A DNA stretch of 38,046 nucleotides, taken from Planctomycetota bacterium. Lineage in GTDB: Bacteria; Planctomycetota; Planctomycetia; Pirellulales; UBA1268. The notes beneath the pieces were generated by a model. The model was given only the letters and a program-made list of their open reading frames with translations, did no database searches and was not told the DNA's origin. Of the stretch, positions 28,177 to 31,631 are shown in pieces (position 1 is the stretch's first letter; every line of letters begins with the position of its first letter). The translations under genes were made by a program, and so were the position numbers. The stretch is taken from assembly GCA_016872925.1 (NCBI GenBank), contig VGYR01000004.1, positions 1-38,046 of the forward strand, read 5' to 3'.

Positions 28177-28401
28177 ATGCGCACCCTCGTGATCTCGGCC
28201 GTCGCCGCGGCCGCGCTCGTGCCCGTTTCCCCGGTCGACGCCGCCGGCACCGGCTTCGACCCCCGGATCATCACGTTCGGCGAAACCCGGCAGCAGATCC
28301 AGAGCACCCCGATGCTGGAGAGGCCCTACCGGCCGCTCCACGTGTACGGCAACACGGCCCGCCGCCGCCACAGCCGCGGAGCCGTCAAGGCGGCGAAATG
28401 A
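28177..28401 (+). CDS. Small secreted protein of unknown function
   Basis: A 74-residue protein with a signal peptide (VISAVAAAALVPVSPVDAAG) and a mature part of about 50 residues, including PRIITFGETRQQIQSTPMLE and RPYRPLHVYGNTARRRH, then a basic tail. Small secreted proteins of this build (Arg/Tyr-rich, YGNT-RRRH near the end) recur in planctomycetes as far as I recall, without known function. Start ATG at 28177; no clear ribosome site. It is convergent with the SprT-like gene. Confidence 0.65.
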   Translation: MRTLVISAVAAAALVPVSPVDAAGTGFDPRIITFGETRQQIQSTPMLERPYRPLHVYGNTARRRHSRGAVKAAK

Positions 28402-28428: not shown

Positions 28429-29076
28429 TCAGGGCGGGGCCGCAAGCGGCTCGACGAGCAGCAGCCCGTGGACGCGATATTCCCGGCCGGTGCCCGCCTC
28501 GAAGCACCGCCGCCTCGTCCGCACCGGGCGACCGGCGCGAAATGCGTGACCGCCGTCGATCCGAAACCAGGCCCCATCCGCGAGATCCTCCACCCGCACG
28601 CGGTCGTCACGGCGTTGGTCATACCGCGCGAGGGCCAGGAGCAGCCCGCGGTCGCTGCACGTGGCGGCCGCGGGGCGCGCCAGGGAGCGGAGCACCGCCA
28701 CCGCCAGGCCCTCCGGAAACACCCTTGCGTCGACGAGCGGGGCCAGCAGCGCTGAGAACTCCGTCCGCCATTCGGGACCGTGCGGCCGCAGCCGCCGCCG
28801 CCGTCCCGCATGCCGCTCCCACGTCGTGGCATGCGCCACCTCGTGCAGCAGCGTGGTGAGGAAGGCCCAGGGATTCAGATCGGCGTTGATCGTGACCCGG
28901 TGGGCCCGCGCCGGCGGCCGCGGGGGACGATGGTCGCCGAGCTTCGTGCGCCGCGGCCGCACGACCACGACGTCGAGCTGCAGCCGGCTCACGGCCCGGG
29001 CCACATGGTCGACGGCCGCCACCGGCAGGTGCGGCCGCACGATCTCCAGCACCGCTCCGGGCATGGCCGCCGTCAT
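28429..29076 (-). CDS. SprT-like zinc metalloprotease-fold protein
   Basis: A 215-residue protein with HEVAH at 78-82 in the context INADLNPWAFLTTLLHEVAHATTWE and a further His in RPHGPEWRTEF (about 99-105), the arrangement of SprT-like proteins (HEXXH plus a later ligand). The first 60 residues contain an amphipathic segment and VVVVRPRRTKLGDHR. The C-terminal ~70 residues (RVEDLADGAWFRI...EYRVHGLLLVEPLAAPP) form a small beta-domain rather than the usual zinc ribbon. No signal peptide, so probably cytoplasmic. Its ATG overlaps the TGA of the emfourin-like/DUF1353 gene by 4 bp (ATGA), so the two are translated together. Confidence 0.8.
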   Translation of the reverse strand: MTAAMPGAVLEIVRPHLPVAAVDHVARAVSRLQLDVVVVRPRRTKLGDHRPPRPPARAHRVTINADLNPWAFLTTLLHEVAHATTWERHAGRRRRLRPHGPEWRTEFSALLAPLVDARVFPEGLAVAVLRSLARPAAATCSDRGLLLALARYDQRRDDRVRVEDLADGAWFRIDGGHAFRAGRPVRTRRRCFEAGTGREYRVHGLLLVEPLAAPP

Positions 29077-29948
29077 CGGCCGACCCCCGGGATCACGAGC
29101 GTGGGCACGGCGGCCGCGGACACCGCATGCTCCGTGAAATACGCCTCCACCGCCCGCACGTCGGCCGGCGACGGCGGAGCAGGCGTCTCGTCGCGCACCA
29201 CCCGCTCCACCTGCGGCTGCCCGCCCACGACCGTCCGCCGCTCCTCCACCCGCCAGCGGGGCCCGAAGTGGTACACGGCGTAGTACATCGTGGTGGCCTG
29301 CACCGCCCCGACGCCGCCGCACCGACAGGCGTCGTGAAACATCCGGTGGACGTCCGGCCACGGCCGGTCGCGGTCGACGCAGGCCACGTCGTGCACCACC
29401 GACGCGTTGCGGAACCTCCCCTCGAAGGGTCCGCCGATCAGCGACCAGAACGCCCTCGGGATGCTCGCGCCGTTGACGACCGACGCCGCCGGGGCATCCC
29501 AGCGGACGCCCCGCGGATCGACGTAGGCAAAGGGGTCCACGAGCGTCATGTCGCGGCCGTTGGCATCCCACTTCGCGACCACGTCGCCGACGAACCGTCC
29601 CCAGCCGGCGGCCTCGCCGCCGTGCTCGGCGGCATCGGGCACGACGAACGTGAGCGGCTGGGGGGTGGATCGCTTCACCAACTCCGCCACGAGCGGCCGG
29701 GCAGGATCCGGAAGCGACGCGTCGTCGCACGACACGCGAACGAACGCCTCGGCCCGCTCGATCGCCAGGTCGTACTGCCGCCGGTCGCGGCCGGCGGCCG
29801 CGAACCGCTCGAACGACGCCACCAGGCCGCTGGCCAGCACGAGTGCCTCGAGCGCCGCCCGCTCGGCAGCCGCGACCGCGAGCGTGTCGATGCGGCAGCC
29901 GCGGACCTGGCCCGCGAAGCCGCCGGAGAGCATGAAGGTGATCCACAT
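29073..29948 (-). CDS. Emfourin-like protease-inhibitor domain fused to DUF1353
   Basis: A 291-residue protein of two parts. Residues 1-95 resemble emfourin, the protealysin (M4 protease) inhibitor family: ITFMLSGGFAG, then IDTLAV, AALEALVLASGLVASFE, DRRQYDLAIERAE and a final SLPDPARPLVAELVKRS, the same order as in emfourins. Residues about 128-230 are DUF1353: VDPRGVRWDAPAASVVNGASIPRAFW, IGGPFEGRFRNASVVHDVAC and WPDVHRMFHDACRCGGV. DUF1353 has no known activity; its conserved Asp/His residues suggest a hydrolase or metal site. No signal peptide. The start (ATG 29948) begins the emfourin-like domain exactly. It overlaps and precedes the SprT-like gene, suggesting the inhibitor part regulates that or another metalloprotease. 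Family assignment is from memory of the patterns. Confidence 0.7.
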   Translation of the reverse strand: MWITFMLSGGFAGQVRGCRIDTLAVAAAERAALEALVLASGLVASFERFAAAGRDRRQYDLAIERAEAFVRVSCDDASLPDPARPLVAELVKRSTPQPLTFVVPDAAEHGGEAAGWGRFVGDVVAKWDANGRDMTLVDPFAYVDPRGVRWDAPAASVVNGASIPRAFWSLIGGPFEGRFRNASVVHDVACVDRDRPWPDVHRMFHDACRCGGVGAVQATTMYYAVYHFGPRWRVEERRTVVGGQPQVERVVRDETPAPPSPADVRAVEAYFTEHAVSAAAVPTLVIPGVGR

Positions 29949-30017: not shown

Positions 30018-31631
30018 ATGCTGCATCGCTCGCTGCCGGCCGTGTTGCCCGTGTTGCTGTGGATGACGGCGTCCGCGTGCGCCGCCACCGACGCCCCGCG
30101 GTGGAACGTTCTCCTGCTGTTCGCCGACGATTGGGGGCGCTACGCGTCGTGCTACCGCGGCATCGACGGCCGCCCCGGTCTCAACGACGTCGTCTCCACG
30201 CCGGCGCTCGACCGACTGGCCCGGGAGGGGGTGCTGTTCCGGAACGCCTTCGTGAGCGCCCCGTCGTGCACGCCGTGCCGCTCGGCACTGCTCTCGGGAA
30301 GGCACTTCTTTCAGTGCGGCCGCGGAGCGATTCTCCGCAACGCGGTCTGGGACGCCGGCATTCCCTCGTTTCCGCTGCTGCTCGAGCAGGCGGGCTACCG
30401 GATCGGCAAGTCGTACAAGGTCTGGGGTCCCGGCACGCCCCCCGACGCCCCGATCGGGGGCCAGCGGCGGGCCTTCGAGCAGGCGGGGCGGCTGCCGAAC
30501 GACTTTTCGGAACATGCGACCCGGATGCTCGCCGAGGGGCACGACATCGCCGCCGCCCGCGCCGCCGTCGTGGCGCAGATCCGCGACAACTTCCGCGCCT
30601 TCCTCGACTCCGCCGGCGGCGGGCCCTGGCTGTTCGTCTGCGGTCCCACCACCACCCATCGCGGCTGGGTCAAGGGTTCCGGCCAAACTCTCTGGGGGAT
30701 CGATCCGGCCACGCTTCGTGGGCGGATGCCGGCATTCCTCCCCGACGTGCCCGAGGTCCGCGAGGACGTGGCCGACTATCTCGGCGAGGTGCAGGCGGTC
30801 GACGCCTACATGGCCGCGCTTCTCGCCGAACTGGAGGCGCGGGTCCTCCTCGACCGCACGCTCGTCGTGGCCAGCGGCGATCATGGCATGCCGGGGGTGC
30901 CGGCCGGCAAGTGCGAACTTCACGACCACGGCGTTGCGGTCGCCCTCCTGGCCCGGGTGCCCGGCGGCACGGCAGGCCGGATCGTCGACGACTTCGTGTC
31001 GCTGCCCGACCTGGCGCCCACGTGCCTCGAGATCGCCGGCGTGCCGCGACCAGCGGGCATGACGGCCCGAAGCCTACTGCCGCAGCTTGCGGCGGCCGGA
31101 AGCGGGCAGATCGATCCCGCGAGGACGTTCGTGATCACGGGGCGCGAGCGGCACGTCGACGTGGCCCGCGACAACAATCTCCCCTACCCGATGCGGGCGA
31201 TTCGCACCGCGACTCACCTCTACATCCGCAACCTGGCGCCCGACCGCCTGCCGCTGGGCAGGCCTGGCAGCGCCGCGGCCGGGGCCGCGGCCGACGCCCA
31301 GGTGCTCGAGCGCGATACCTTCGCCGCCTACCCGGACATGGACGCCGGGCCCACCAAGGCATGGCTGATCCGCCATCGCGACGAGCCCGAGTGGCGCTGG
31401 CTCTTCGACTACGCATTTGCCCCGCGGCCCGCCGAGGAACTCTACGACCTGCGGTCCGACCCCGACCAGGTGCGGAACGTCGCCGAGTCCCCTGAGCATG
31501 CGGTCATCCGCCGCGATCTCGCGGCCCGCCTCGACCGCGAGCTGCAGGAGGCAGGCGATCCACGGCTCACGGCCGAACCGGAGTTCGAGCGGCCGCCATT
31601 CACCGACGTCGAGGAGCGGAAGCGGCCCTGA
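30018..31631 (+). CDS. Sulfatase, type I (formylglycine-dependent), exported
   Basis: A 537-residue S1-family sulfatase that hydrolyses sulfate esters. The signal peptide ends near SACAATDA. The metal site begins with FADDWG (36-41). The activation motif is CTPCR at 84-88 (C-x-P-x-R); Cys84 must be oxidised to formylglycine by a separate enzyme not seen here. PTTTHRGW, ASGDHGMPG and KCELHDHG supply further metal and sulfate-binding residues, and EELYDLRSDPDQVRNVA is the common C-terminal motif. The ATG at 30018 has GGAGG 8 bases upstream. Likely acts on sulfated polysaccharides in the periplasm, in line with the glycosidases here; the substrate is not predictable. Confidence 0.93.
   Translation: MLHRSLPAVLPVLLWMTASACAATDAPRWNVLLLFADDWGRYASCYRGIDGRPGLNDVVSTPALDRLAREGVLFRNAFVSAPSCTPCRSALLSGRHFFQCGRGAILRNAVWDAGIPSFPLLLEQAGYRIGKSYKVWGPGTPPDAPIGGQRRAFEQAGRLPNDFSEHATRMLAEGHDIAAARAAVVAQIRDNFRAFLDSAGGGPWLFVCGPTTTHRGWVKGSGQTLWGIDPATLRGRMPAFLPDVPEVREDVADYLGEVQAVDAYMAALLAELEARVLLDRTLVVASGDHGMPGVPAGKCELHDHGVAVALLARVPGGTAGRIVDDFVSLPDLAPTCLEIAGVPRPAGMTARSLLPQLAAAGSGQIDPARTFVITGRERHVDVARDNNLPYPMRAIRTATHLYIRNLAPDRLPLGRPGSAAAGAAADAQVLERDTFAAYPDMDAGPTKAWLIRHRDEPEWRWLFDYAFAPRPAEELYDLRSDPDQVRNVAESPEHAVIRRDLAARLDRELQEAGDPRLTAEPEFERPPFTDVEERKRP

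Follow-up and report, generated by a model that had tools for sequence, protein, structure and literature searches.

The stretch of DNA that was analysed (the window, 38,046 nucleotides) covers positions 1 to 38,046 of contig VGYR01000004.1 of the planctomycete assembly GCA_016872925.1. It encodes a protein in which a protease inhibitor domain of the emfourin family is joined to a DUF1353 domain, and the following features were assigned in and beside this gene.

28177 to 28401, plus strand: small putative secreted peptide with the motif RPYRPLHVYGN, convergent to the SprT-like gene
28429 to 29076, minus strand: SprT-like, zinc-protease-like gene, 215 aa, with an ATGA overlap with the fusion gene at 29073-29076
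29073 to 29948, minus strand: emfourin-DUF1353 fusion gene, 291 aa, both domains by Pfam
29274 to 29549, minus strand: DUF1353 domain, PLA2-like, residues 134-225, by Pfam (PF07087) and hhalign
29346 to 29348, minus strand: His201, in the position of the PLA2 dyad Asp (D85 in TtaP), 15 residues after His186
29388 to 29393, minus strand: His186-Asp187, aligned to the PLA2 H-D as counterparts of the catalytic His and the adjacent Asp
29679 to 29927, minus strand: emfourin (M4 metalloprotease inhibitor) domain, residues 8-90, by Pfam (PF20242)

The open reading frame of the fusion gene starts with ATG, and no signal peptide was seen in the 291-residue protein. The preliminary description of this DNA had placed an emfourin and a DUF1353 domain in one protein, and this was borne out by Pfam matches that were far above chance for both. 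PF20242 matched residues 8-90 with an E value of 2.4e-12 and 47.5 bits (cut-off 27; 50.1 bits in the genome search), and PF07087 matched residues 134-225 with an E value of 2.1e-18 and 66.2 bits (cut-off 22.5). The AlphaFold models were confident, with pLDDT values of 93.5 and 95.5. The fusion gene recurs within the window's genus, where it was found in 16 genomes and the relatives first aligned had 61-74% identity to the window protein. In six comparisons the dN/dS was 0.11-0.37 for the emfourin domain and 0.13-0.28 for the DUF1353 domain. The recurrence of the gene and the purifying selection on both domains show that the fusion frame is real. Searches for relatives of the fusion among viral contigs found none, and no significant sequence relative of the protein was found in the PDB.

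Among the tblastn-confirmed loci of GTDB genomes, which were collected with two DUF1353 peptide patterns only, the fusion was confined to the clade of the window (L143-L156). Judged from these sequences, it belongs to one genus-level planctomycete clade. G217 (L158, G217:C144) falls within the fused clade but has emfourin and DUF1353 as two reading frames with a GTGA overlap; this is either one split of the fusion or an assembly indel. G216 carries a fusion gene scattered over several reading frames and an M4 gene with internal stops, which may reflect joint decay or a poor assembly.

The known targets of emfourins are proteases of the thermolysin family. In Serratia, emfourin occupies the active site of protealysin in a 1:1 complex and both genes lie in one operon; protealysin is able to cleave FtsZ and RecA (PMC9505478). 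In the planctomycete proteins the residues S8, G9, G10, G13, D55, D75 and P80 are invariant and common to the fused and the M4-adjacent emfourins. The model of the emfourin domain (window positions 29658-29948) matched the emfourin NMR structure 6zyg weakly, with a Z score of 4.7 and an rmsd of 5.1 over 82 aligned residues, and a profile of the planctomycete emfourins had no significant sequence relative in the PDB. For the same model Mago nashi scored higher (Z 7.2) than 6zyg, and the protease inhibitor sermetstatin came next with a Z score of 4.0.

The occurrence of the genes was surveyed in 72 genomes of the family, where emfourin was found in 35, M4 in 34, DUF1353 in 25 and the SprT-like gene in 60. 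Emfourin and M4 were both present in 30 genomes and both absent from 33, with emfourin only in 5 and M4 only in 4 (Fisher 9e-11). When the labels were shuffled within the genera, a mean of 23.2 genomes contained both, and none of 20,000 shuffles reached 30. Inside the window's genus alone the association is no more than suggestive (Fisher 0.055). M4 was not detected in G101 and G184, two emfourin-bearing genomes that are more than 90% complete. Emfourin was also present in 23 of the 25 family genomes with DUF1353.

The gene order in the relatives gave a corresponding picture. M4 is located directly before emfourin in G051, G129, G148, G152, G144 and others, the order M4-emfourin-DUF1353 was found in L160-L163 and L167, and G097 has the run M4-emfourin-DUF1353-SprT. 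Within the window's genus the M4 gene lies apart, at a distance of 5 kb in G213 and of 18 kb in G217, and on a separate contig in the genome of the window. This own M4 (G000:C158) is intact, contains a HELTH motif and scored over the cut-off with both PF02868 (163.8 bits) and PF01447 (95.9 bits). It has no evident signal peptide. The protealysin propeptide PF16485 did not match it, and in the relative L163 reached 17.6 bits against a cut-off of 28.1. The own M4 is apparently protealysin-like. The preliminary description had taken the protease to be SprT-like rather than M4, and the intact M4 in the same genome together with the M4 genes adjoining emfourin in the relatives speaks against this. 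As in the emfourin (M4in)/protealysin operon of Serratia proteamaculans (PF20242, PDB 6zyg), the emfourin scores over the Pfam cut-off and the relatives encode it directly after a signal-less M4; unlike there, DUF1353 is joined to the inhibitor of the window, and the M4 gene of this genome is not linked to it. Divergent to the M4 gene, contig C158 encodes a protein of some 1,100 aa that has no Pfam match (L221, 1786-5238), and such a protein was found divergent to M4 in nearly every M4-bearing family genome that was read.

The second domain had been called uncharacterised, which no longer applies to the family. Its member TtaP is a demonstrated phospholipase A2 with the catalytic residues His70, Asp71 and Asp85, and the D85A mutant is inactive (PMC11525133). 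A profile built from 62 DUF1353 domains, almost all of them taken from the search for related loci, was compared by hhalign with planctomycete phospholipases of PF09056 and aligned over the HD...F...Y..AV..FG core with a probability of 92.4; the Asp-type DUF1353 set gave 94.1, and the control profiles of emfourin and SprT gave 0.1 and 0.2, respectively. The domain of the window is, by homology, PLA2-like. A direct match of the fusion protein to PF09056 was not found by hmmscan. Foldseek with the DUF1353 model gave no significant PDB match, with no PLA2 among the Foldseek/VIA matches, and the DUF1353 profile had no significant sequence relative in the PDB. Since the profile-profile comparison had found PLA2, the Foldseek result was not read as a lack of homology; it agrees with the statement of the TtaP authors that only the core three-helix bundle is alike between TtaP and the solved PLA2s (PMC11525133). 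Compared with group XIV PLA2 (PF09056), the domain of the window is thus alike in the core, but it has no hmmscan match, lacks the dyad Asp and yielded no PDB fold match.

In 76 related rows the position of His186 was always His and that of Asp187 was Asp in 73. Cys190 was also invariant. The dyad position was His in 66 rows and Asp in 10, counts that come from a search pattern favouring His, and the phage DUF1353 copies that were read have Asp at the position matching His201. The fusion shares with TtaP the PF07087 match and the catalytic His with its neighbouring Asp, and is without a signal peptide (PMC11525133). It differs from TtaP in having His201 for the dyad Asp, in being joined to a protease inhibitor and in its genetic setting. 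Because the dyad Asp is replaced by His201, PLA2 activity is uncertain and we label the domain PLA2-like rather than PLA2. By analogy with the D85A mutant of TtaP, it may have no activity or a different one. Outside the window's family many His-type DUF1353 proteins start, as judged by eye, with an apparent signal or lipoprotein sequence, and the DUF1353 domain of the fusion looks cytosolic. A second DUF1353 gene was seen at L061 (G188:C307), with an N-terminal membrane or signal segment and Asn at the dyad position.

We propose, with a probability of about 0.6, that the fusion is an M4 inhibitor with a PLA2-like, probably membrane-acting domain and that the M4 encoded elsewhere in the genome is its most likely target. 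The product would be cytosolic and consist of two domains. The emfourin domain at the N-terminus would inhibit the cell's own signal-less M4, encoded on another contig, presumably by blocking its active site in the way known for Serratia protealysin. The C-terminal PLA2-like domain would most likely act on, or dock to, membrane phospholipid. In this way the inhibitor, together with whatever protease it has bound, would be anchored to the membrane or linked to an activity that cuts lipids. M4-emfourin would be the ancestral arrangement, to which DUF1353 was probably added as the next gene before the set came beside SprT; in the last step emfourin and DUF1353 would have fused and M4 would have been separated from them. 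Behind the proposal stand the Pfam matches, the co-occurrence with M4, the gene order, the empty site beside SprT, the purifying selection and the PLA2 homology, and from these the order of events, the inhibition of M4, the action on membranes and the coupling of the two are inferred. Against it stand the M4 gene that is not adjacent in the own genome, the two emfourin-bearing genomes in which M4 was not detected, the merely suggestive association within the window's genus, His201 at the dyad position, the negative Foldseek search and the weak match to 6zyg.

Emfourin and DUF1353 are already known, each with a separate role. A description of the fusion, of the M4-emfourin-DUF1353 ancestry or of the His-type dyad was not found in the open-access literature, and subscription journals may differ in this respect. 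The description of the emfourins as an inhibitor family is recent, and so is the assignment of an activity to DUF1353. The M4-emfourin-DUF1353 set in its fused form is a testable lead on the cytosolic role of PLA2-like DUF1353 proteins and on the control of signal-less M4 proteases, and it bears on whether proteolysis and the attack on membrane lipids are coupled. The widespread change from Asp to His in the dyad poses a clean question of enzymology.

The DUF1353 domain could instead be a catalytically dead PLA2-like fold that only binds lipid or membrane, in which case the fusion would be a membrane-tethered M4 inhibitor. This is conceivable, if doubtful. His201 replaces the dyad Asp in every aligned emfourin-linked copy, and this Asp is essential in TtaP (PMC11525133). 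The invariance of His186 and Cys190 and the strong retention of Asp187 and His201 over many phyla suggest a working site rather than decay, an argument that is weak because the search pattern favours these residues.

It was also considered that M4 and the PLA2-like domain act jointly on membranes or on rival cells as an effector/immunity or release module, where emfourin would silence the protease until its release and the fusion would couple immunity to membrane permeabilisation. We regard this as unlikely. Effector and immunity roles have been suggested for protealysin and emfourin (PMC9505478), the TtaP authors favour a function in toxin release (PMC11525133) and no signal peptide is evident in the M4. 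On alphaproteobacterial plasmids DUF1353 also occurs joined to an astacin and next to S8 peptidases, which makes the link between DUF1353 and proteases a recurrent one. However, a secretion gene or delivery domain was not seen in the module, and both domains of the fusion look cytosolic. The astacin (M12A) metallopeptidase fused to DUF1353 was observed beside an S8 peptidase on a Sinorhizobium meliloti plasmid (L255, 1574-3139) and also in L257 and L258; in Sphingopyxis and Rhizobium, DUF1353 genes are followed by S8 peptidases. Elsewhere, 116 neighbours of DUF1353 genes were assigned to 134 Pfam families, none of which was dominant, and the S8 peptidase occurred twice. A switch, in which M4 is silenced by an inhibitor with its own phospholipase using a His-His variant of the dyad, so that freeing one activity would free or localise the other, seems quite improbable to us.

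The gene overlapping the fusion was called SprT-like by its motif and a near-threshold score only, with 25.1 bits for PF10263 just below the cut-off of 25.6. As in the SprT-like family it has HExxH...HGxxW, which was invariant in 13 sequences (H78, E79, H82 and H99), and the site HExxH...H is intact. The ATGA at 29073-29076 is common to both reading frames, so that the overlap with the HEXXH gene had been read correctly. The pairing of the two genes held in part of the related loci: an ATGA or GTGA overlap with SprT was found in about nine of them and suggests translational coupling. In the other loci the distance to SprT ranges from tens of bases to 2 kb, or SprT is missing from the vicinity. 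The order DUF1353-SprT is retained in most of genus g1 and part of g2.

Unlike M4, the SprT-like gene is distributed independently of emfourin. It is near-universal and single-copy, and 28 of the 60 family genomes that have it are without emfourin. Both genes occurred together in 32 genomes, where 31.4 were expected, and 9,145 of 20,000 within-genus shuffles reached this number (Fisher 0.11). In G025 and G083 the fusion gene is sited away from SprT, and in the sister genome G025 (L243) an interval of 199 bp with nothing in it separates SprT from the epimerase gene, which is the empty site. In genomes without emfourin nearby, SprT retains its own neighbours, the small convergent secreted peptide and a putative DUF4440-like gene. 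These neighbours, the empty site and the lack of co-occurrence indicate that the overlap is a local arrangement and not a functional pair, and the SprT-like gene was judged a neighbour of the fusion and not its partner. The protease/inhibitor module of SprT and emfourin that had been suggested earlier is not upheld by these data. SprT as the emfourin target was rejected on the basis of its distribution and the empty site, and with M4 present and the known targets in the thermolysin family a new protease/inhibitor pair of this kind is very improbable. In the window a sulfatase gene (30018-31631, plus strand) separates the fusion gene from the epimerase; at this place it is missing in L032, L033 and L222. 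The peptide with the motif RPYRPLHVYGN is conserved next to SprT in different genera, whether or not emfourin is present.
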